A program made the position numbers and the translations under genes. Shown one piece after another: positions 10,028 through 24,066 of a DNA stretch of 64,000 nt (its first letter is position 1; each line of letters opens with the position of its first letter). This DNA is from Pseudovibrio denitrificans JCM 12308. Its GTDB lineage: Bacteria > Pseudomonadota > Alphaproteobacteria > Rhizobiales > Stappiaceae. The notes under the pieces are model-generated. The model saw only the letters and a list, made by a program, of their open reading frames with translations. It was not told where the DNA came from and made no database searches. The stretch covers positions 1-64,000 of the forward strand of contig NZ_BAZK01000020.1 of assembly GCF_001310815.1 (NCBI RefSeq), read 5' to 3'.

Positions 10028-10059
10028 CTGGCCAATGCTATAGCGGAATCTGGCCCTAA
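10028..10059 (+). promoter_or_regulatory. Candidate TauR direct repeat, xsc promoter
   Basis: CTGGCCAATG (10028-10037) and CTGGCCCTAA (10050-10059) are direct repeats 22 bp start to start. The second matches the CTGGACYTAA motif that I recall for Rhodobacter TauR in 9 of 10 positions. Similar paired repeats occur upstream of tpa/tauR and tauA. Confidence 0.5.
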
Positions 10060-10149: not shown

Positions 10150-11927
10150 ATGAAGATGACTACCGAAGAGGCCTTTGTAAAAGTGCTGCAAATGCATGGG
10201 ATTGATAACGCCTTTGGCATTATCGGTTCAGCCATGATGCCGGTTTCGGATCTCTTTCCCGCCGCAGGTATCAAGTTCTGGGATTGTGCCCATGAATGTA
10301 ACGCGGGCATGAGTGCGGACGGGTACTCCCGCGCCACCGGCAAGATGAGCATGGCGATTGCTCAGAACGGTCCGGGCATCACCAACTTCGTGACGCCTAT
10401 CAAAACAGCTTACTGGAACCATACGCCTTTGCTGCTTGTTACCCCGCAGGCAGCCAACAAGACCATCGGACAAGGTGGCTTTCAGGAGATTGAGCAGATG
10501 GCTCTCTTCGAGGATATGGTTTGCTATCAGGAAGAGGTTCGTGATCCTTCTCGTATTGCGGAAGTGCTGAATCGCGTGATTGAGAAGGCCTGGCGCGGAT
10601 GTGCTCCGGCCCAGATCAACGTGCCACGTGATTTCTGGACACAGGTGATCGATATCGAGCTGCCGCAGATCGTGCGTATGGAAAAGCCGCGCGGTGGTGT
10701 GCAATCCATCAAGAAGGCTGCAGAGCTGCTTTCGGATGCCAAGTTCCCGGTGATCCTGAATGGTGCGGGCGTGGTGTTGAGCGGTGCTATTCAGGCCTCT
10801 GCCTCTCTGGCGGAGAAGTTGAGCGCACCGGTGTGTTGTGGCTATCAGCATAATGATGCGTTCCCCGGCAATCATCCCCTCTCTGTTGGTCCGCTTGGGT
10901 ACAATGGCTCAAAAGCGGCAATGGAGATGATTTCCAAGGCGGATGTGGTGCTGGCCCTTGGCACACGCCTCAATCCATTCTCCACTCTGCCCTGCTATGA
11001 CATGGATTACTGGCCGAAGGAGGCCAAGGTCATTCAGGTGGACATCAATTCTGACCGGATCGGCCTGACCAAGAAAGTCACCGTCGGTATTCAGGGTGAT
11101 GCTCGTGCTGTGGCGGAGCAGATTATGGAAGAGCTGGCTGATCATGCTGGCAATGATGGCCGTGAGGAGCGTGAGGCTCTCGTGCATCATGCTAAGTCTG
11201 CGTGGTTACAAGAGTTGTCCTCCATGGATCACGAGGATGACGATCCGGGCACCACTTGGAATGAGCGCGCTCGCACGCGTGAGCCTGAAAAGATGTCTCC
11301 TCGCATGGCATGGCGCGCTATTCAGGCCGCACTGCCGAAGGAAGCGATCATCTCTTCTGACATCGGCAACAACTGTGCGATTGGTAATGCCTATCCGAGC
11401 TTTGACGAAGGGCGTAAGTACCTTGCTCCGGGTCTGTTCGGCCCATGCGGATATGGCCTTCCGGCTATTCTGGGTGCGAAGATTGGTTGCCTGATACGCC
11501 GGTGGTCGGCTTTGCTGGTGATGGTGCGTTTGGTATCTCCATGAACGAGATGACCGCGTGTGGCCGTGATGACTGGCCGCCGATTACCATGGTGATCTTC
11601 CGCAACTATCAGTGGGGTGCGGAGAAGCGCAACACCACGCTGTGGTACGACGATAACTTCGTTGGCACCGAGCTTAATCTGGAAGTGCAGTACGCCAAGA
11701 TTGCGGAGGCCTGCGGCCTCAAGGGCATTCAGGTGTTCAGCATGGATGAGCTGAGCAAGACACTGGATGATGCCATTGAAGGCCAGATGGAGCGCAATGA
11801 AACCACGTTCATTGAGGTGATCCTCAATCAGGAACTTGGAGAGCCTTTCCGCAGAGACGCCATGAAAGCACCGGTTGCTGTCGCAGGCATCAATGCGGAA
11901 GATATGCGCGAGCAAGAACTCGCGTAA
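10150..11927 (+). CDS. xsc: Sulfoacetaldehyde acetyltransferase (frameshifted)
   Basis: Xsc is a thiamine-diphosphate enzyme that turns sulfoacetaldehyde and phosphate into acetyl phosphate and sulfite, the desulfonating step of taurine breakdown. The N-terminal domain has CAHECNAGMSADGYSRATGK with the ThDP-activating Glu and TNFVTPIKTAYWNHTPLLLV. The ThDP motif GDGAFGISMNEMTACGR...VIFRN is near the C-terminus. ATG 10150 follows GGGGAGG. The frame breaks near 11490 (KIG|CPDTPVVGFAG), where TGCCCTGAT appears to have lost one C. The joined length of about 592 residues is normal. tpa, tauR and tauABC follow within 10 kb. Confidence 0.93.
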
Positions 11928-12101: not shown

Positions 12102-14576
12102 TTATGCGTCTTCCAGTTCTTTCAGGCCGCGCATACGTAGGCTTTTAGGGTCGTACATTGGCTTGAAGGATGCTTCAGCATCGCAAAGAGTGCCTTCCAC
12201 GTCGATTTGGTAGGTGGAAGCGAGCATGTCTTTGATTGTTTCACCCTTACACGGCACGTAGCCGAGGCCGACTGCACCACCGAGCGTGTGACCGTAGTTT
12301 CCGGAGGTGAGATAGCCGACGATTTCTCCATCCCGCAGCACAGGCTCGTTGTGATGCAGGAGTGGCTCTGCATCTTTCAGCTTGAACTGCAGCATGCGGG
12401 AGGACAGGCCTTCTTCTTTCTTCCGCAGGACAGCATCTCTGCCAATGAAGGATGGCTTCTTAGTGCTGACTGCGAAACCAAGGCCAGCTTCCAAAACGTG
12501 GTCTTCTTCGGTTATATCATGACCGAAATGTCGGAAACCTTTTTCGATGCGCAGGGAATCCATTGCATGGAGACCGCAGAGTTTTAGGTCTAAATCGGCG
12601 CCTGCTTCCATCAGAGTTTCATAGGCATGCGCCGCCATGTCGGTTGAGACATAAAGCTCCCAGCCCAACTCACCCACATAGGACACACGGTGCGCACGCG
12701 CGAGGCCCATGCCGAGTTCGATCTCCTGCATGGTGCCGAAGGGGTGGTTTTCGTTGGACCAGTCGTGGTTAGAAAACTTGGAGAGCAACTCTCTGGAGTT
12801 AGGCCCCATCACCACCAGTGTTGCTTCGCCCGTAGTTATGTCGGTGATCACCACATTGGCGCCCGCTTTGTGCTTGTTGAGCCAGCTGAGTTCGCAGATC
12901 ACTGTCGCTGCTGGGGTTACGAGCAAATAAGCGGTTTCGGAGAGGCGGGTGACGGTGAGGTCCGCTTCAATGCCACCGCGTTCATTGAGGAACTGCGTGT
13001 AAACAATCTTGCCGACTGGTACCGACATATCGCCACCGCACATATGATTGAGCAGACTTTCCGCATCCGGACCTTCAACACGGATTTTGCCGAAGGAGGA
13101 CATGTCATAGAGGCCGACATTGTTGCGGATGGCGAGGTGTTCTCGTTTAGAGTTCTCGAACCAGTTCTGGCGTTTCCAAGAGTACGCGTAGGTTGGCTCC
13201 TGCCCTTGGTCTGCAAACCAGTTGGCTCGTTCCCATCCAGCCGTCTCACCAAATGCTGCACCTGCTTGTTTTAGATGCTCATGCAAGGGTGAGCGGCGGA
13301 CACCGCGGGCGGTTACCTTTTGGCGGAATGGGAAGTGGTCTGCATAGAGCAGTCCAAGCGTTTCCTTGGAGCGCTCATAGAGGAAGGTCTTGTTGCCCAT
13401 AAACGGTTGCATACGGCGGATATCAACATCGGAGAGGTCAAATGGCGGATAGCCGTGCTCCATCCAATGCGCCAGTGCCATGCCTGCTCCCCCAGCGGAC
13501 TGTATACCGATGGAGTTGAAGCCCGCACAGACAAAGAAGTTCTTGAGCTCAGGTGCTTCCCCCAGATGATAGGCATCATCAGGCGTGAAGCTTTCCGGGC
13601 CATTGAAGAAGGTATGGATCCCCGTTACGGCCAGTTCAGGGAAGCGGTTGATGGCTTGCTCCAGGATTGGCTCGAAGTGCTCGATATCTTCAGGCAACTG
13701 ATCGAAGCAGAAGTCCTCTGAAATGCCCTGCATGCCCCAAGGCTTGGCGATTGGTTCAAAGGCGCCCAGAAGGATTTTGCCAGCATCTTCTTTATAATAG
13801 GCGCACTCGTCCGGTACGCGCAGGGTTGGGAGTTGAGGCAGGCCAGCAATGTTGTCAGTGACCATGTAGAAGTGCTCACAGGCGTGGAGCGGCACGTTTA
13901 CGCCGGCCATTCGGCCCAATTCGTGTGCCCACATGCCAGCGCAGTTGACCACATAGTCAGCGGCGATATGGCCTTGCTCATCACTTCCATCACGCTGCCA
14001 TGAGACACCAGCGACGGCGCCATTGCGCTTTTCAATGCTGGTGACTTTGACACCTTCAAAGACTTGCGCACCCCGTTGGCGCGCGCCTTTGGCAAGAGCA
14101 AGGGCGATGTTGCCCGGGTCTCCCTGCCCGTCCTTTGGCAGATAGACAGCCGCAGTAACATCCTCAGCATTTACATAGGGATAGCGATCCAGCAGTTCTG
14201 ATGTGGAGATTTCTTCGACTTCCACCCCAAAGGCGCGGGCCATGGCGGCGGAGCGCAGGATCTCGCTGCGGCGCTCTTCGGTCAGAGCCACCGTGATTGA
14301 GCCGTTGCGGCGGAAGCCAGTCGCAATTTCTGTTTCGGCTTCCAGGTCGCCGTAAAGCTCCTGCGAGTATTTCGCCAGGCGCGTCATGTTTTTGGATGCG
14401 CGCAGCTGCGCGATCAAGCCCGCAGCGTGCCACGTGGTGCCACAGGTAAGCTGTTTGCGCTCCAACAGCACGATGTCTTTCCAGCCAAGCTTGGCCAGAT
14501 GATATGCAACAGAACACCCGGCGATACCGCCACCGATGATAACCGCACGAGCATTTTGTGGAATAGGCTTCGTCAT
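12102..14576 (-). CDS. Dimethylglycine dehydrogenase-like FAD/GcvT protein
   Basis: An 824-residue protein with the four-part layout of dimethylglycine and sarcosine dehydrogenases. An N-terminal DAO-type FAD domain begins AVIIGGGIAGCSVAYHLAKLG. A CGTTWHAAGL motif follows, whose His carries covalent FAD in the eukaryotic enzymes. Next come the FAO_M linker (around 375-430), a folate-binding GCV_T domain (NNVGLYDMSSFGKIRVEGPDA; GELGWELYV) and a GCV_T C-terminal barrel. It should oxidatively remove a methyl group from a secondary or tertiary amine and pass it to tetrahydrofolate. ATG 14576 follows GAGGGGAGG. It lies directly downstream of tpa on the same strand with a 79-base gap, in a taurine regulon. 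I therefore infer N-methyl- or N,N-dimethyltaurine as substrate; dimethylglycine or sarcosine remain alternatives. Confidence 0.85.
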   Translation of the reverse strand: MTKPIPQNARAVIIGGGIAGCSVAYHLAKLGWKDIVLLERKQLTCGTTWHAAGLIAQLRASKNMTRLAKYSQELYGDLEAETEIATGFRRNGSITVALTEERRSEILRSAAMARAFGVEVEEISTSELLDRYPYVNAEDVTAAVYLPKDGQGDPGNIALALAKGARQRGAQVFEGVKVTSIEKRNGAVAGVSWQRDGSDEQGHIAADYVVNCAGMWAHELGRMAGVNVPLHACEHFYMVTDNIAGLPQLPTLRVPDECAYYKEDAGKILLGAFEPIAKPWGMQGISEDFCFDQLPEDIEHFEPILEQAINRFPELAVTGIHTFFNGPESFTPDDAYHLGEAPELKNFFVCAGFNSIGIQSAGGAGMALAHWMEHGYPPFDLSDVDIRRMQPFMGNKTFLYERSKETLGLLYADHFPFRQKVTARGVRRSPLHEHLKQAGAAFGETAGWERANWFADQGQEPTYAYSWKRQNWFENSKREHLAIRNNVGLYDMSSFGKIRVEGPDAESLLNHMCGGDMSVPVGKIVYTQFLNERGGIEADLTVTRLSETAYLLVTPAATVICELSWLNKHKAGANVVITDITTGEATLVVMGPNSRELLSKFSNHDWSNENHPFGTMQEIELGMGLARAHRVSYVGELGWELYVSTDMAAHAYETLMEAGADLDLKLCGLHAMDSLRIEKGFRHFGHDITEEDHVLEAGLGFAVSTKKPSFIGRDAVLRKKEEGLSSRMLQFKLKDAEPLLHHNEPVLRDGEIVGYLTSGNYGHTLGGAVGLGYVPCKGETIKDMLASTYQIDVEGTLCDAEASFKPMYDPKSLRMRGLKELEDA

Positions 14577-14600
14577 TGATTGCCTCCCCTCAACCAACTA

Positions 14601-14634
14601 GGAAAACAAAAGAAGAGCACAAATGTGCTCTTCT
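14601..14634 (-). terminator. Intercistronic terminator-like hairpin between tpa and dehydrogenase gene
   Basis: On the minus strand AGAAGAGCAC-ATTT-GTGCTCTTCT (10-bp perfect stem) is followed by TTTGTTTTCC. It is likely a partial terminator that lowers expression of the downstream gene relative to tpa. Confidence 0.7.
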
Positions 14635-14655
14635 CAAAACAATACTTTCTTCGAT

Positions 14656-15993
14656 TTATTCGGCCATGAGCGTTTTTCTCATTGCATCCACGATCTCATC
14701 GACATGACTTCGCTCTGCAATGAACGCTGGGGCCAGAATGGCTGTGTCCCCCGTCCATTTGGCGTGGCACCCGTTCCAGAACAGCTTTTTCTGCATCTCG
14801 TTGCCGCGGATGCCGGGCTTGCCGGGAAGTGGGTGAACCTCCACACCGCCCATGAGGCCGTACCCTCGAATATCTTTCACGATCGGAATATCCTGTAGGG
14901 ACCAGATCGCGTCGAGGAAGTAATCGCTCAGCTCTGCTGCACGTTCAAACAGGCCTTCGTCCTCGTAAATCTTCAGCGTTGCCAGACCTGCTGCACAGGC
15001 TGCCGGATGAGCTGAGTACGTGTAGCCGTGGAAGAACTCGATGGCATTTTCCGGAGCAGCTTCGGTGATGGTCTCATAGACCTGATCGGACGCTGCGACA
15101 GCCCCCATTGGAATCGCGCCGTTGGTGAGTGCTTTTGCCAGGGTGATAATGTCTGGCATGACGTTGAACGCATCAACTGCAAATGGTTTGCCAAGGCGAC
15201 CAAAGCCGGTGATCACTTCATCAAACACCAGCAGAATGCCATGCTCATCACAGATCTGACGGACGCGCTCCAGATATCCCTTTGGCGGGACAAGCGTTCC
15301 GGTAGAACCCGCGACAGGTTCAATAAACACAGCTGCGATTGTTGAGCCGCCGTAAGTTTCACAGAAACGCTGCAGGTCATTTGCCAGTTCGGCACCTGTT
15401 TCCGGCTGGCCTTTTGTGAAGGCGTTTTCTTCGTTCCAAGTGTGACGCATCATGACAATGTTTGGCATGACGACCGGGAAGGTTTCGCGGTTTTTCACCA
15501 TACCGGACAATGAGACGCCACCCATGTTTACACCATGGTAGGCCCGCTCTCGGGAGACAAAGCGGGTGCGTTGCGCTTCACCATTGGCACGGTGATAGGC
15601 CATGACCATTTTGAGCGCTGTATCGATGGCCTCTGAGCCAGAGTTAACGAAGAACACATGGTTGAATGGCTCTGGCATGATCTGGGTAAGTTTAGCCGCA
15701 AACTCAAAGGATGTTGGTTGCCCCAGCTGGAATGGCGCTGTGTATCCGTTCTGCATCATTTGAGCATGGACGGCATCCGCAATGGACTTGCGGGCATGGC
15801 CTGCCGGGACGTTGAACAGACCGGAAGATCCATCAACCAGACGATCACCCTGCTGATTCCAAAGGTACATTCCCTCTGAACGAGTGATGAGGCGTGGAGC
15901 ATTCTTGAAATCCCGGTTTGAGGAAAACGGCATCCAGTGTTGCTCAAGAGAATTAGTTTTGACTTGTTCAATCGGCTCTGCAAGGACACTCAT
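14656..15993 (-). CDS. tpa: Taurine--pyruvate aminotransferase
   Basis: This class III PLP-dependent aminotransferase of 445 residues moves the amino group of taurine to pyruvate, giving sulfoacetaldehyde and alanine. Typical elements are EQHWMPFSSNRDFK, DGSSGLFNVPAGHA, FVNSGSEAIDTALKMV, the AYHG loop, DEVITGFGRLGK, and the lysine segment TLAKALTNGAIPMGAV, where the PLP Lys lies. From sequence alone a beta-alanine--pyruvate aminotransferase (BauA/omega type) is hard to exclude. Placement between xsc and tauR, and a TauR-like site in its promoter, favour Tpa. The dehydrogenase-like gene follows in the same operon. Confidence 0.85.
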   Translation of the reverse strand: MSVLAEPIEQVKTNSLEQHWMPFSSNRDFKNAPRLITRSEGMYLWNQQGDRLVDGSSGLFNVPAGHARKSIADAVHAQMMQNGYTAPFQLGQPTSFEFAAKLTQIMPEPFNHVFFVNSGSEAIDTALKMVMAYHRANGEAQRTRFVSRERAYHGVNMGGVSLSGMVKNRETFPVVMPNIVMMRHTWNEENAFTKGQPETGAELANDLQRFCETYGGSTIAAVFIEPVAGSTGTLVPPKGYLERVRQICDEHGILLVFDEVITGFGRLGKPFAVDAFNVMPDIITLAKALTNGAIPMGAVAASDQVYETITEAAPENAIEFFHGYTYSAHPAACAAGLATLKIYEDEGLFERAAELSDYFLDAIWSLQDIPIVKDIRGYGLMGGVEVHPLPGKPGIRGNEMQKKLFWNGCHAKWTGDTAILAPAFIAERSHVDEIVDAMRKTLMAE

Positions 15994-16083: not shown

Positions 16084-16115
16084 ATAGGTCCAGTTGTTCT
16101 TGACCATAGAGCCAG
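16084..16115 (-). promoter_or_regulatory. Candidate TauR direct repeat, tpa/tauR divergent promoter
   Basis: On the minus strand CTGGCTCTAT (16115-16106) and CTGGACCTAT (16093-16084) are direct repeats exactly 22 bp start to start, as at xsc. A third, degenerate CTGACCTAAT follows immediately (to about 16074). Confidence 0.55.
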
Positions 16116-16164: not shown

Positions 16165-17678
16165 ATGAGATACAGCTTGTTTTCCGTTGACCGGGATGAC
16201 AGCACAACGCTGCAAAGTCAGATTCGCGAGATGCTCGTCTCTGCTATTCTTTCCGGCCAACTTGCTGAAAACACACCAGTTCCTTCAACACGTGCTTTGG
16301 CGAAACGGCTGAGTGTTTCGCGCAATACGGTGATGTTGGCGTATCAGGCACTGGCTGCAGATGGCTATCTGATTACCCGAGAGAGGTCGGGATTTTACGT
16401 CTCACCAGAGGTTATTGAGAATCTCGGACAGCTGCCAGATCCGGTCAGACCCAAGGAGCAGGTGCCTGGTGATCGGGTGGATTGGTCTTCAAAATTGCGG
16501 CTTACGCCCTCTACTCAGTTCAACATTCTGAAGACTGAGAACTGGCACAGCTACCCCTATCCGTTCATCTATGGGCAGGTGGATCCGACGCTGTTTCCAA
16601 TCAGCGCCTGGCGGGATTGTGTACGCCAGACCATGAGCATCAAATGGCTGGATGCCTGGACTGATGATCGCTTTACAGCTGATGACCCCATGCTGATTGA
16701 GCAGATTCAGCGGCGTATTCTGATCCGCCGTGGAGTTATTGCCGAATCTGACGAGATTCTGGTGACGATGGGGCTCAGAACGCGTTGTTTCTCATCGCCC
16801 ACCTGTTTGTAAGGCCGGACACGCCTGTTGCGTTGGAAGACCCAGGTTATCCTGATGTGCGCAACATCATGCAGCTGCGAAGCTCGGACATTCGGGCGAT
16901 TCCCGTTGATGAGGAAGGCATTCGCGCGGACATGTTGGGGGATGCAAAGCTAGTCTATGTGACGCCCAGCCATCAGTTCCCTACCAACACCACGATGACT
17001 ATGAAGCGGCGTAGGGAAGTGTTGGAATGGGCAGCGCAATCTGATGCGCTGATCATTGAAGATGATTATGAGTATGAGACCAACTACCGGGGGCAGCCGA
17101 CTGCTGCACTTCGGTCTGTCGATGCATCAGGGCGTGTGCTTTACGTGGGCAGCCTTTCCAAGTCGATCATGCCGGGGTTGCGGATTGGGTTTATTGTGGC
17201 ACCAAAGCCTGTGATCAAAGAAATCCGCGCAATGCGCCGGTTGATGCTACGCCACCCACCCGGCAACAACCAGCGCAGCGTTGCTCTGTTTCTGGCGCAA
17301 GGTTCGCAGGATGCGCTGATCAGCAAGCTGCATCACGCGTACTCCAACCGCTGGAATGCGCTGAGTGAAGCTATGGAGACGCACTTCCCCGGCTGGGCTC
17401 AGGTCTCTGCATTTGGGGGATCTTCTTTCTGGGTGAGTGGGCCGCCTGAACTGGATGCAACTGCGCTTGCGCAAGAAGCGTTGAAGAAAGGTGTTCTGAT
17501 TGAACCGGGCAATGTGTTCTTTGCGGATCCAAGCCAGGGTAAAAACTATTTCCGCCTCGGCTTTTCTTCAATTCATGCTGACAAAATACCCAAGGGAATA
17601 GAAATACTCTCAGAGACAGCAGATAAATTGCTGCATCGCAGCACAAATAAACGAGAGAACCCTCTCATCAGCGCATAA
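16165..17678 (+). CDS. tauR: MocR/GntR-type regulator TauR (frameshifted)
   Basis: TauR-type proteins combine a GntR winged helix with an aminotransferase-fold domain that binds PLP, and activate taurine genes. The DNA-binding part shows LAENTPVPSTRALAKRLSVSRNTV and GYLITRERSGFYV. The aminotransferase-like part shows EDPGYPDVRN, IIEDDYEYE, and the PLP-Lys segment YVGSLSKSIMPGLRIGF. ATG 16165 follows GGAGGGAGG. The frame breaks near 16770, where ATGGGGGCTCAG appears to have lost one G; the second part continues AQNALFLIAH-like to 17678, giving about 504 residues. It is divergent from tpa and next to tauABC, and the candidate sites at three promoters support the role. Confidence 0.85.
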
Positions 17679-17974: not shown

Positions 17975-18961
17975 ATGGCATTGAAGAAGCTTGCAGGTAA
18001 ACTGGCACTTGCAGCAGGCCTGGTGGCGAGCCTTGGAATGAGCACGGCTCATGCGCTTGATAAAATCACCGTCGCCTACTTTCTGGAATGGCCTACCGCG
18101 AACCAGGCAGCACAGATCGACAAGACCTATGATGAAGCTCTTGGTCTGGAAGTTGAATGGCGTGCCTTCGGTAATGGAAACGAGATGGTGCAGGCCATGG
18201 TTTCCGGCGATGTGCAGATTGCTTACAGTAACGGCTTTGTTCCCTTCGTTGTTGGTGTTTCCTCTGGTGCTCCGATTAAACTTGTAGGTGTGGCAGTCAC
18301 TTACGCTGAAAATGACCTCTGCATTGTGCGCAATGATTCCGGCATTACCAAAGCAAATGCGAAGGAGCTAGAAGGGAAGAAAGTTGCGACACCGATCGGC
18401 AACGTAACCCACTACAAGCTCATTCGTACGCTGGATCACCTCGGCGTAGACATCAACAAAGTGAACCTTGTGCAGATGAACCCTGCCGATGCGGCGGTTG
18501 CTGTTGTGCGCGGTGATGTTGTGATGGGCTGTGCTTTTGGCGGTGCGTTGGACCGTATGAAAACCGTTGGTACACCGTTGATGACTGGTGCTGAACAGGA
18601 AGCCGTTGGCATCAACACGTTTGATGTGGTGAATGTAACCAACGACTTTGCAGCAGAGCATCCAGATCTGGTGAAGAAGTTCATGGAAGTTACCAATCAG
18701 GCCAACACCACCTACAACAGTAATCCGGATGCGGTTTACGACAAGATCGCCCTTGCTGCAGGTATGGATCTTGAACCCGCCAAGAAGATGATCGCGAACT
18801 TCGGCTTTCCAACCAGCGAAGAGCAGCTTCAGGAAAACTGGCTTGGTGGTGGTATTCAAGCAGCGGCTAAAGGCGTGGCTGATGTGATGGTTTCAGCTGG
18901 CGGTCTGGATGAAGCGCTGGACGACTACTCCCAGTTCGTCGACGCAAGCTACCTCAAATAA
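17975..18961 (+). CDS. tauA: Taurine ABC transporter, periplasmic binding protein
   Basis: TauA binds taurine in the periplasm and delivers it to TauBC. The 328-residue product has an N-terminal signal peptide (KKLAGKLALAAGLVASLG, cleavage likely after TAHA) and a SsuA/TauA-type binding fold: ITVAYFLEWPTANQAAQ, EMVQAMVSGDVQIAYSNG, GKKVATPIGNVTHY and DAAVAVVRGDVVMGC. GGAGGGGG precedes the ATG. It heads tauABC and is followed by a hairpin that probably raises its transcript level relative to tauBC. Confidence 0.93.
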   Translation: MALKKLAGKLALAAGLVASLGMSTAHALDKITVAYFLEWPTANQAAQIDKTYDEALGLEVEWRAFGNGNEMVQAMVSGDVQIAYSNGFVPFVVGVSSGAPIKLVGVAVTYAENDLCIVRNDSGITKANAKELEGKKVATPIGNVTHYKLIRTLDHLGVDINKVNLVQMNPADAAVAVVRGDVVMGCAFGGALDRMKTVGTPLMTGAEQEAVGINTFDVVNVTNDFAAEHPDLVKKFMEVTNQANTTYNSNPDAVYDKIALAAGMDLEPAKKMIANFGFPTSEEQLQENWLGGGIQAAAKGVADVMVSAGGLDEALDDYSQFVDASYLK

Positions 18962-19054: not shown

Positions 19055-19867
19055 TTGAGTGGAATAGTTGCCGACAATATCTCTATGGTTTTCACCCTTC
19101 CCAATGGTGATCAAGTCCATGCTCTCAACAACGTCAATCTGAATGTAAAGGATGGTGAGATCATCTCCGTTCTTGGTCCATCCGGATGCGGTAAAACAAC
19201 TCTTCTCAACATCATTGCAGGCTTTCTTCGTCCGACCTCCGGCAAAATCGTCCGCGAGAATGTGGATGTGACCGGCCCCGGCCCGGACCGCGGAATGGTG
19301 TTTCAGCAAGGCGCGTTGTTTGAATGGATGACCGTTGAGAAGAATATTGCATTTGGCCCAAAGATGGCTGGGCGTCCCGCTGCTGAAACCAAGCGCAAAG
19401 TGGATGAGCTGCTGCAGATTGTAGGCCTGCAAGACTTTGGCAAAAAGCCGGTTTATCAGCTTTCCGGCGGCATGCAGCAACGTGTGGCTCTGGCTCGCTG
19501 CCTTGCCAACGATCCGGAAGTGATCCTGATGGATGAACCACTTGGCGCACTGGATGCTCTGACCCGCGAAAAGATGCAGAGCCTTGTGCTGAAGCTTTGG
19601 AAAGAGACGCGCAAAACCATTATTCTTATCACGCATTCCGTTGAGGAAGCACTCTTCCTTGGGGAACGCCTGATTGTGATGGCACCACGTCCTGGCCGAA
19701 TCCTGCGTGAATACGAGCTTCCGTTTGCAGATCTCGGATTGGTGGAGAGTCCTCGTCAGATCAAAGCTTCACCGGAGTTTGTGAAAACGCGCGAAGAAAT
19801 CCTGTCTCTCATCTGGGGCATGGAAGAAGAGATTATGGGCAATGACCAAGAGCTGGAACCAGCATAG
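19055..19867 (+). CDS. tauB: Taurine ABC transporter, ATP-binding protein
   Basis: The 270-residue ATPase of the taurine importer starts at TTG 19055 after GGGAGAAG. It contains Walker A GPSGCGKTT, the Q-loop in MVFQQGALFEWMTVEKN, signature LSGGMQQRVALAR, Walker B VILMDEPLGALD, and the H-loop Thr-His-Ser in ILITHSVEEALFLG. The EALFL sequence and length fit the nitrate/sulfonate/taurine (SsuB/TauB) subfamily. tauC follows with a 9-base gap. Confidence 0.93.
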   Translation: MSGIVADNISMVFTLPNGDQVHALNNVNLNVKDGEIISVLGPSGCGKTTLLNIIAGFLRPTSGKIVRENVDVTGPGPDRGMVFQQGALFEWMTVEKNIAFGPKMAGRPAAETKRKVDELLQIVGLQDFGKKPVYQLSGGMQQRVALARCLANDPEVILMDEPLGALDALTREKMQSLVLKLWKETRKTIILITHSVEEALFLGERLIVMAPRPGRILREYELPFADLGLVESPRQIKASPEFVKTREEILSLIWGMEEEIMGNDQELEPA

Positions 19868-19876
19868 GAGGCCAAT

Positions 19877-20744
19877 ATGAGCAAGCATCACACGCCGCCC
19901 TCCGGCCTATCTGTTTGGCTTGGGCTTAAAGACAATGTTTTCACGCAGCAAAAGACCGTTCGTTTTGGCGACGCCAGCGCCGTCAACTCTGGCCGGTTCT
20001 ACTCCATCCTGACCGTTGTTGTGCTGCTGGCCGCATGGGGCATCGCAAGCGCCTTGGGCATGCTAGAGAGTTTCTATTGGCCATCGGTGGACGCGACGAT
20101 CACACGAATGAGCAAGCTGCTTTCCGCTGGTTTCAGAAACGTGGCGTTCTGGGATCATATTGGTATCTCGGTGTTCCGTGTTCTTGCTGGCGTTTTGCTG
20201 GGAGCCTCGTGGGCATCCCTCTAGGTCTGGCCATGGGGCTTTCTTCCGTTGCTCGCGGCTTGTTTGATCCCATCGTGGAGTTTATGCGCCCGATCCCTCC
20301 GCTGGCATTGATCCCGCTGATCATTCTGTGGTTTGGCATTGATGAGACAGCAAGATCTTCCTGCTGTTCCTTGCATCCCTGTTCATCATGACGATTGCAG
20401 CACGCTCTGGCGTGAACAGCGTCAAGATCACCAAGGTGCACGCAGCTTACTCATTGGGTGCCTCGCGTACACAGATCCTGTTTCATGTAATCCTGCCCAA
20501 TGCACTGCCAGAGATCTTCACTGGTCTGCGTACGGCGATGGGCGTTTGCTGGGGCACTGTTGTGGCGGCGGAGCTGGTGGCAGCTGATAAGGGTGTCGGC
20601 TCCATGATCATGATTGCAAAGAACTTTTTGCAGACAGATACGGTGGTTATCGGCATCTTTGTGATCGGGCTTATCGGATACACGATTGAGCTGGGCATGC
20701 GGTATCTGGAACGCTGGCTTATTCCGTGGCAAGGCAAAGGTTAA
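19877..20744 (+). CDS. tauC: Taurine ABC transporter, permease (two frameshifts)
   Basis: The inner-membrane channel subunit begins MSKHHTPPSGLSVWLGLKD. It continues over three reading frames, with breaks near 20202 (CTGGGG read as CTGGG) and near 20351 (GCAAAG read as GCAAG). The joined protein is about 289 residues, normal for TauC. Membrane helices include SILTVVVLLAAWGIASALG and VVIGIFVIGLIGYTIELGM. The EAA loop region YSLGASRTQILFHVILPNALPEIFTGLR contacts TauB. Two breaks in a gene with intact partners argue for read errors. Confidence 0.88.
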
Positions 20745-22689: not shown

Positions 22690-24066
22690 TTAGGCTGCTT
22701 CCAGCAAAACTGCAAGCTGTTCTCTGTATTTAGCGGTGATAGCTGCGCGGTGGATGTGCTGCCCATCCTTCACCATGTGTCGTCCGGCGGACCAGACATC
22801 AGTTACGACACGATCATCACCTGCAAAAATCCAATAATCCAGATATTGGTCTGGCCTCAGGCCGGTGAACTCCACCCGTGCTGTATCAATCGCGACGACA
22901 TCTGCGAGGCTGCCTTCTTTGAGCTCACCAGTGCTGCGACCCAAAGCCTGAGCTCCACCTTTGGCTGCGGCCTGATACATGGCGGTGCCAACAGATCCTT
23001 CGCCGTTCAACATGACATTTCGGGACTGATCACGCAGGCGCTGGCTGTATTCCAGCACGCGCAGTTCCTCAGAAAGTGAGATGCGCAGGTTGCTGTCAGA
23101 ACCAACACCATAGACACCACCTGCTTCGATGAAGGTCGGCCCGTTGAATATGCCATCGCCAAGGTTTGCTTCGGTGATTGGGCACAGGCCCGCTACGGCA
23201 CCAGCTTTTGCCATAGCCACAGTTTCTTCTGTGGTCATATGGGTGGCGTGTACGAAACACCAGTTGTTGCGGACATCAACGTTGTTCAGCAGCCATTCGA
23301 TTGGGCGTGCCCCAAGCCATTCTTGAACAGCTTCGACTTCCTTCATCTGCTCTGAGATGTGGATGTGCACTGGCTTGCCAGCAAAGACGGATGCAATCTC
23401 ACGCAACTGATCGGGATTGGTCGCGCGCAGAGAATGCGGCGCGATGCCGAACTGGCAATCTGCCGGCAGAGATATCGTTAGGGATTTCGACGCTTCTTCA
23501 ATGAGTTGCAGGTGGCGTTCCAGATCATTGCCGAACCGTAGTTGTCCGCCGCTTAAAGGCTGCTCGCCAGCACCACCGTAGGAGTAAAGAACCGGCAAAT
23601 GAGTGAGGCCGATGCCTGTTTGATTGGCAGCGGCAAATATGCGGAGGCTCATTTCTGCGAGGTTGTCGTAAGGCGTTCCATCTGGCTGGTGATGAAGGTA
23701 GTGGAACTCGCCAACACTGGCGTACCCAGCCTCTAACATCTCCATGTAAACCAGCGCGGCGATTGCCTCGACCTGTTCCGGGCGCAATTGCCCCAGAAAC
23801 CGATACATCAGCTCGCGCCATGTCCAGAAACTATCCTTCCCCTTCTGGCGAACTTCGGTCATGCCTGCCATTGCCCGTTGGAAGGCGTGCGAGTGCAGAT
23901 TGGCAGGGGCCGGACAGATCATCCTGTTTTTGCCAGAAACCTCTTCACCTTCAGGCGTCACGCCGGTCTCAACGGTTTTTATGGTGCCGTCAGCGTTCAG
24001 GTGCAAACGCACATTCTCGGTAAGACCAGTGGGGAGTAAAGCCTGCCCTGCGAAGATGGTTTTCAT
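22690..24066 (-). CDS. hutF: Formimidoylglutamate deiminase
   Basis: HutF hydrolyses N-formimino-L-glutamate to N-formyl-L-glutamate and ammonia, the fourth step of the five-step histidine route. The 458-residue amidohydrolase shows the metal site LHSHAFQRAM, HIHISEQMKEVEA, FVHATHMTTEET and the late GVGSDSNLRIS with the metal Asp. The presence of HutF with HutG defines the route that ends in glutamate plus formate, not formamide. It is divergent from hutI, with hutC 42 bases downstream. Confidence 0.95.
   Translation of the reverse strand: MKTIFAGQALLPTGLTENVRLHLNADGTIKTVETGVTPEGEEVSGKNRMICPAPANLHSHAFQRAMAGMTEVRQKGKDSFWTWRELMYRFLGQLRPEQVEAIAALVYMEMLEAGYASVGEFHYLHHQPDGTPYDNLAEMSLRIFAAANQTGIGLTHLPVLYSYGGAGEQPLSGGQLRFGNDLERHLQLIEEASKSLTISLPADCQFGIAPHSLRATNPDQLREIASVFAGKPVHIHISEQMKEVEAVQEWLGARPIEWLLNNVDVRNNWCFVHATHMTTEETVAMAKAGAVAGLCPITEANLGDGIFNGPTFIEAGGVYGVGSDSNLRISLSEELRVLEYSQRLRDQSRNVMLNGEGSVGTAMYQAAAKGGAQALGRSTGELKEGSLADVVAIDTARVEFTGLRPDQYLDYWIFAGDDRVVTDVWSAGRHMVKDGQHIHRAAITAKYREQLAVLLEAA

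Follow-up and report, generated by a model that had tools for sequence, protein, structure and literature searches.

The closest described relatives of the enzyme considered here are the human and rat mitochondrial dimethylglycine dehydrogenases (5l46 and 4p9s) and the dimethylglycine oxidase of Arthrobacter (1pj5), which uses oxygen and has no taurine context. N-methyltaurine itself is the substrate of the N-methyltaurine dehydrogenase of Alcaligenes faecalis and Paracoccus versutus, which releases methylamine and sulfoacetaldehyde directly. We analyzed a 64,000-nucleotide stretch of Pseudovibrio denitrificans JCM 12308 (positions 1 to 64,000 of contig NZ_BAZK01000020.1; hereafter the window), where a gene for an FAD/GcvT demethylase (12102..14576, − strand) lies beside tpa, which is predicted to encode taurine:pyruvate aminotransferase. 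A sequence-only reading of this DNA had proposed that the demethylase supplies taurine from N-methyl- and N,N-dimethyltaurine to Tpa and to the sulfoacetaldehyde acetyltransferase Xsc. Our data suggest that N-methyltaurine is probably the main substrate of the window demethylase in Pseudovibrio. The proposed substrate is the same as that of the Alcaligenes and Paracoccus dehydrogenase, but the window enzyme is predicted to give taurine and methylene-tetrahydrofolate (methylene-THF).

Marine bacteria provide further points of comparison. In R. pomeroyi, SPO3400 and SPO3396 are named by annotation as dimethylglycine dehydrogenase and sarcosine dehydrogenase (PMC4744692). SPO3396, as predicted there, adjoins a homocysteine methyltransferase gene rather than tpa or xsc and, from gene order alone, probably belongs to the same clade as the window protein. 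In some Rhodobacterales TauR regulons, a COG665 oxidoreductase is predicted alongside an aminotransferase related to Tpa, with no function given for the COG665 gene where these regulons are described (PMC5320631). We found no bacterial gene for folate-linked methyltaurine demethylation in the open-access literature, a search that left subscription journals mostly outside and is no proof of absence from print. The window demethylase would represent a plausible new specificity within a known enzyme family.

An intact FAD/GcvT demethylase

The demethylase gene is an intact single open frame encoding 824 amino acids, with its stop end at 12102 and its likely ATG at 14576 (the frame 12102-14597 is the same one counted from an upstream TTG). 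In line with the sequence-only reading, it follows tpa on the same strand after a gap of 79 bases (14577-14655). Four Pfam domains, all above gathering scores, occur in the order DAO, FAO_M, GCV_T, and GCV_T_C. Similarity is near full length to both solved 4p9s (E 5e-132, residues 8-778) and 1pj5 (E 1.4e-116, residues 9-817). Asp552 of 1pj5, which has a role in the Arthrobacter oxidase, aligns to Asp539 of the demethylase. His225 and Tyr259 of the oxidase, a pair named in a reference title within PMC5082570, align to the putative catalytic pair His235/Tyr260, and the flavin-linking His91 of human dimethylglycine dehydrogenase (DMGDH; PMC5082570) aligns to His50. The window protein therefore shares the aligned His, Tyr, and Asp with the oxidase, and domain order, full-length similarity, and the aligned covalent-FAD His with the mitochondrial enzymes. 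On the basis of these domains, similarities, and aligned catalytic residues, we assign it to the FAD/GcvT demethylases (the DMGDH/sarcosine dehydrogenase (SARDH) family) as an intact representative.

More specific models did not name the protein. None of the 25 NCBIfam models listed (of 48) scored above cut-off, and these 25 included no DMGDH or SARDH model. Scores for the heterotetrameric sarcosine oxidase alpha subunit (TIGR01372; 191.9 bits, cut-off 1164) and for trimethylamine N-oxide demethylase (NF053776; 156.2 bits, cut-off 1100) were below threshold. The protein is 94-96% identical to proteins of four Pseudovibrio records (L103-L106), and the layout of the taurine cluster around it is kept in all four loci.

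Recurrent linkage to taurine genes

To define the association with taurine catabolism, we used a sample of 249 genomes of the order, with at most three candidates scored per genome from among the listed matches. Close homologues were defined by at least 58% identity to the window protein (43 genes in 42 genomes), and 107 listed relatives of 42-57% identity, not all relatives, served as the control. Genes for tpa were counted at 58% identity or more (43 rows in 42 genomes), and a group at 48-55% was dropped as another aminotransferase type. Short contigs were counted as unlinked, a bias against the taurine claim.

Genomes with a close homologue contained tpa in 24 of 42 cases compared with 18 of 207 without (Fisher p 1.7e-11, ancestry ignored), and xsc in 27 of 42 compared with 30 of 207 (p 1.5e-10, ancestry ignored). 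Physical linkage is the stronger argument, because the control relatives also co-occur with the taurine genes (see below) but show no linkage. In tpa-containing genomes, close homologues started no more than 12 kb from that gene in 11 of 25 cases, compared with 0 of 29 for the listed controls; for xsc, the corresponding counts were 10 of 28 and 0 of 47. Chance proximity of the demethylase and tpa is rejected by the tpa counts, with the proviso that the controls are the listed ones and the p-values ignore ancestry.

The association was also mapped onto a tree of 118 homologues, which excluded L003, L040, and all rows below 54% identity and to which the window protein was added by itself. Homologues were labeled taurine-linked (27 of 118) if any of tpa, tauA, tauB, and xsc lay no more than 8 kb away. 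This label changes 10 times over the tree, at least 9 of them by starred branches, with gains and losses indistinguishable. A single taurine-specific clade is rejected, as taurine-linked members are scattered over the tree. Gene order varies from lineage to lineage: the demethylase gene directly follows tpa in Pseudovibrio, L073, and L064; an XRE regulator intervenes in L076, L077, L079, and L080; and tauABC intervenes in L062 and L063. The link between the demethylase and taurine catabolism is real and recurrent.

One locus is of a different kind. In L078 (417-11263, genome G007), tauABC is followed by three FAD/GcvT demethylase genes on the same strand, and neither xsc (E 1e-200) nor tpa (E 1e-140) was found in this genome. 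Perhaps this locus serves demethylation for one-carbon (C1) energy only.

Placement in a sarcosine-type clade

Homologue loci often contain two FAD/GcvT genes, which we call DM74 (the clade of the window demethylase) and DM33 (a second paralogue, ~32% identical). The common order, with gene families checked in example loci, is XRE/cupin regulator, DM33, homocysteine S-methyltransferase and/or MttB, and DM74, with MttB, where present, standing before or after DM74. In R. pomeroyi, the locus numbers SPO3400 and SPO3396 place three genes between the two annotated enzymes. Three frames likewise separate DM33 from DM74 in the R. intermedia locus L181 (alcohol-dehydrogenase-like, homocysteine methyltransferase, and one more). 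In R. arenilitoris L167 the number is four (cupin, alcohol dehydrogenase, homocysteine methyltransferase, and AraC-type regulator), and in Ruegeria sp. L173 it is two. Because of this parallel in gene order, DM33 would act on the dimethyl substrate and DM74 on the monomethyl one. The match to SPO3400 and SPO3396 depends on L181, with R. pomeroyi placed by gene order alone; the case for a taurine substrate does not draw on this match.

With role names taken from this comparison (PMC4744692), the window protein falls in the sarcosine-dehydrogenase-type clade and not, as its first description implied, in the dimethylglycine-dehydrogenase-type clade. Monomethyl taurine is therefore a likelier substrate than N,N-dimethyltaurine, and removal of one methyl per enzyme is likelier than one enzyme for both. 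The proposed link to methylated taurines is retained, but the idea of a single enzyme acting on N-methyl- and N,N-dimethyltaurine becomes less likely.

The two paralogues also differ in a short motif. Among the printed rows, a 'QLR' stretch is common to DM74 and the 44-57% relatives ('QGR' in L062-L064) and is absent from the 12 DM33 rows; human sarcosine dehydrogenase has this stretch as well. At this stretch, around Arg59, the window protein differs from mitochondrial dimethylglycine dehydrogenase, and its expected substrate differs in carrying a single methyl and a sulfonate.

In Pseudovibrio, the DM33-type gene lies on another contig, both in the source genome and in two named genomes. In P. 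axinellae (L106), tpa and DM74 are paired, and no close DM33 is present (best 35%). The Pseudovibrio DM33 proteins from two titled genomes fall in a starred (95) group of 9 whose other 7 rows are all taurine-linked (one long-branch row, L063_11532, was left out of this tree). Ancestry may explain this grouping, as Roseibium may be a near relative. In G080 and G145, a DM33 gene borders the taurine cluster on its other side.

Two sets of homologues had unexpected taxonomic labels. The demethylases of L147, titled Nocardioides marinus (an actinobacterium), fall among Leisingera/Phaeobacter sequences in the trees, and the record is likely mislabeled or contaminated. Four metagenome-assembled genomes labeled Granulosicoccaceae/Chromatiales (L113, L114, L116, and L117; gammaproteobacteria) encode homologues 74-75% identical to the window protein, with DM33 beside them in three; these reflect either transfer between classes or binning error.

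Proposed pathway

In the model that we favor, the demethylase is a covalent-FAD, tetrahydrofolate-linked N-demethylase that would act on N-methyltaurine by oxidizing its N-methyl group. The flavin domain would accept two electrons, probably handing them to electron transfer flavoprotein (ETF), and the GcvT domain would capture the methylene as 5,10-methylene-THF with release of taurine. Tpa would then convert taurine to sulfoacetaldehyde, which Xsc would cleave to sulfite and acetyl phosphate. For N,N-dimethyltaurine, the separate DM33 paralogue would remove one methyl beforehand; its gene lies on another contig in Pseudovibrio and inside the taurine clusters of Roseibium and other lineages. 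Co-transcription of tpa and the demethylase gene would occur by read-through.

Among candidate substrates, a methylated taurine has the strongest support because of the recurrent taurine linkage, the separate sarcosine genes of Pseudovibrio, the gene content of genome G083, the Roseibium loci, the DM33 grouping, and the occurrence of such compounds in algae. On the last point, the sequence-only reading had named methylated taurines as compounds of marine algae, and mono-, di-, and trimethyltaurine are reported from the red alga Galaxaura rugosa (PMC10538540).

Alternative substrates

An unlikely alternative, although the one that fares best, is that the gene encodes a standard sarcosine dehydrogenase for glycine-betaine breakdown, without methyltaurine activity, placed incidentally beside taurine genes, with both clusters serving osmolytes. 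Clusters of XRE regulator, DM33, homocysteine methyltransferase, and DM74 occur in many roseobacters and are compatible with SPO3400/SPO3396; the printed active-site stretches are unchanged, and some carriers have no xsc. Yet the taurine linkage arose or persisted repeatedly and is absent from the listed related paralogues. The neighbors of the window gene are tpa and xsc, not the DMGDH-type and betaine methyltransferase genes expected next to a SPO3396-type sarcosine dehydrogenase.

Moreover, Pseudovibrio already possesses a route for sarcosine, as judged from separate soxA and GbcA-like genes. SoxA scored above cut-off in all three genomes reached via L103, L105, and L106, and is in two pieces in the source genome. 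SoxB (L185) and a BCCT transporter belong to the same additional set, with SoxA/SoxB and the GbcA/GbcB-like genes lying in a cluster apart from the taurine genes. All four Pseudovibrio genomes have GbcA-like genes, with a GbcB-like gene in addition, both below their cut-offs. The four genomes gave no homocysteine methyltransferase match at E 1e-20 and no MttB match at E 1e-30. Genome G083 (98% complete) also argues against a role confined to glycine betaine: DM33 and DM74 are kept inside its taurine cluster (L070) and no known betaine-entry gene was found. Homocysteine methyltransferase, MttB, and GbcA gave no match at the applied thresholds, and SoxA gave none beyond shared GcvT domains.

A broad secondary-amine demethylase acting on sarcosine, N-methyltaurine, and possibly N-methyl-beta-alanine, with its role set by the co-regulated cluster, is more doubtful. 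The same printed active-site stretches recur across contexts, and modules with and without taurine genes lie on neighboring branches. Human DMGDH also accepts sarcosine, poorly (PMC5082570). Taurine's extra ethylene and its sulfonate would nevertheless need room, a matter beyond judging from sequence. Oxidation of some other compound of the taurine neighborhood (hypotaurine, homotaurine, or a further N-methyl sulfonate not yet known) is highly improbable: the cluster gives a sulfonate context and no exact molecule, but the THF-binding GcvT domain implies a one-carbon group to trap, and hypotaurine and homotaurine carry none.

Several observations weigh against N-methyltaurine as the substrate. 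The control relatives also showed increased co-occurrence with xsc, to a lesser degree (32 of 85 compared with 25 of 164; p 1e-4), and likewise with tpa (20 of 85 compared with 22 of 164; p 0.05), so part of the co-occurrence reflects lifestyle or ancestry. Three printed flavin/substrate-site stretches fail to separate the 26 taurine-linked proteins from 15 of the 87 other close homologues. Likewise, specificity-determining columns gave no clean signature, the top columns (312, 314, and 318) being not obviously in the active site and confounded with ancestry, and no feature among those examined indicated sulfonate specificity. The only listed model above cut-off for the product of tpa describes a general omega-aminotransferase, and a hairpin after tpa argues against simple co-transcription. 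Nor is the demethylase subfamily tied to Xsc everywhere. In the order sample, xsc is missing (E 1e-200) from 12 of 23 unlinked carriers, compared with 3 of 19 linked ones; in the searched genomes of titled loci, it is missing from 7 of 49 at E 1e-150 and present in 42. Where there is no xsc, and thus no feeding of Xsc, DM74 probably serves sarcosine. The DM74 clade also probably includes R. pomeroyi SPO3396, annotated as a sarcosine dehydrogenase, a match drawn from gene order only. The simplest reading that fits all of these data is that a single type of enzyme serves both pathways, by virtue of breadth or of small undetected changes.

A possible taurine-betaine route

Six Roseibium/Labrenzia loci (L131, L134, L138, L140, L171, and L179) contain taurine transporter genes, an aminotransferase, an XRE/cupin regulator, DM33, DM74, and xsc in one stretch, and look like full taurine-betaine clusters. 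MttB and ackA were each detected in four of the six; contig or locus ends may hide some. In L134, L140, L171, and L179, all genes of the route but ackA lie in one stretch, with ackA also detected in L140 and L179. The cluster aminotransferase is ~30% identical to Tpa of the window.

Together, these loci lead us to propose, tentatively, that marine Alphaproteobacteria have an aerobic pathway that degrades algal taurine betaine completely. An MttB-family corrinoid methyltransferase would remove the first methyl, DM33 the second, and DM74 the third, followed by the aminotransferase, Xsc, and AckA; the Pseudovibrio version would be shortened. A precedent for MttB in this role comes from glycine-betaine demethylation in R. 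pomeroyi, where mutants show that MtgC and MtgD are needed and the MtgB candidates, of the pfam06253 (MttB) family, are induced (PMC12478193, 2025).

Organization and regulation of the window locus

The aminotransferase gene adjoining the demethylase gene (14656..15993, − strand) encodes a class-III enzyme with an Aminotran_3 domain, and the omega-aminotransferase AptA was its sole model above cut-off among 25 of 69 NCBIfam models listed. We infer that it is Tpa from the surrounding cluster, which includes a MocR-type regulator, tauA, tauB, tauC, and xsc. Beyond tpa, the following genes run divergently on the + strand: tauR (16167..17678), a MocR-type GntR/aminotransferase regulator; tauA (17975..18961), a taurine-type ABC substrate-binding protein (TIGR01729, 177.7 bits, below the cut-off of 304); tauB (19055..19867), a taurine-type ABC ATPase (PRK11248, 283.3 bits, below the cut-off of 357); and tauC (19877..20744), a permease named by position and by match to an L112 gene. 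On the other side, xsc (10150..11927, + strand) encodes sulfoacetaldehyde acetyltransferase, with TIGR03457 above cut-off from its first piece alone. Eight loci without a readable homologue of the demethylase gene were left out of the comparison of locus layouts.

Three of these genes are frame-broken in the window assembly: xsc near 11490, tauR near 16773, and tauC near 20206 and 20352. All are whole in the four relatives, which suggests assembly errors; tpa and the demethylase gene are whole in the window as well. Further frame-broken genes occur elsewhere in the source assembly (G000; C1 17723-20709 and C8 123490-125918), again whole in relatives. The breaks are probably sequencing errors and should not be read as pseudogenes. 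A few kb past the taurine cluster, a hutF-type formimidoylglutamate deiminase gene (22690-24066) scored above cut-off.

The sequence-only reading placed the demethylase gene under the taurine-type promoter of tpa. Upstream of tpa, a TauR-like box, CTGGACCTAT (16084..16093, − strand), is followed by CTGACCTAAT, the first box being kept in all four relatives. A second TauR-like box, CTGGCCCTAA (10050..10059, + strand), also kept in all four, lies upstream of xsc. Compared with the TauR consensus CTGGACYTAA (PMC5320631), the boxes upstream of tpa and xsc have one mismatch each. Across the window, TauR-like sites with up to two mismatches were not above chance (68 seen, 73 expected), and none of those listed falls in the 79-base spacer that separates tpa from the demethylase gene. 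This spacer contains a terminator-like hairpin (14610..14635, − strand), its stem of 11 pairs followed by a T-rich tail; the spacer folds at −26 kcal/mol (z −3.6), and the hairpin is kept in the four relatives, with a variant form in L104. Because of this hairpin, a common transcript of tpa and the demethylase gene would need read-through. A taurine-type promoter shared by tpa and the demethylase gene is doubtful for this reason. The xsc gene is a neighbor as described, but it lies on the + strand, converges with the demethylase gene, and has its own upstream TauR-like box. Its membership in a tpa/demethylase transcription unit is rejected by its opposite strand.

Implications

If N-methyltaurine is indeed the substrate, the window demethylase would add a new substrate class to the marine organosulfonate cycle and link algae to bacteria in the supply of C1 units, nitrogen, and sulfur. 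The label dimethylglycine/sarcosine dehydrogenase, in wide use as a glycine-betaine marker in marine genomes, would then be wrong for some members. Should the taurine-betaine route also hold, some of the numerous marine proteins that carry a dimethylglycine or sarcosine dehydrogenase annotation would be methyltaurine demethylases.

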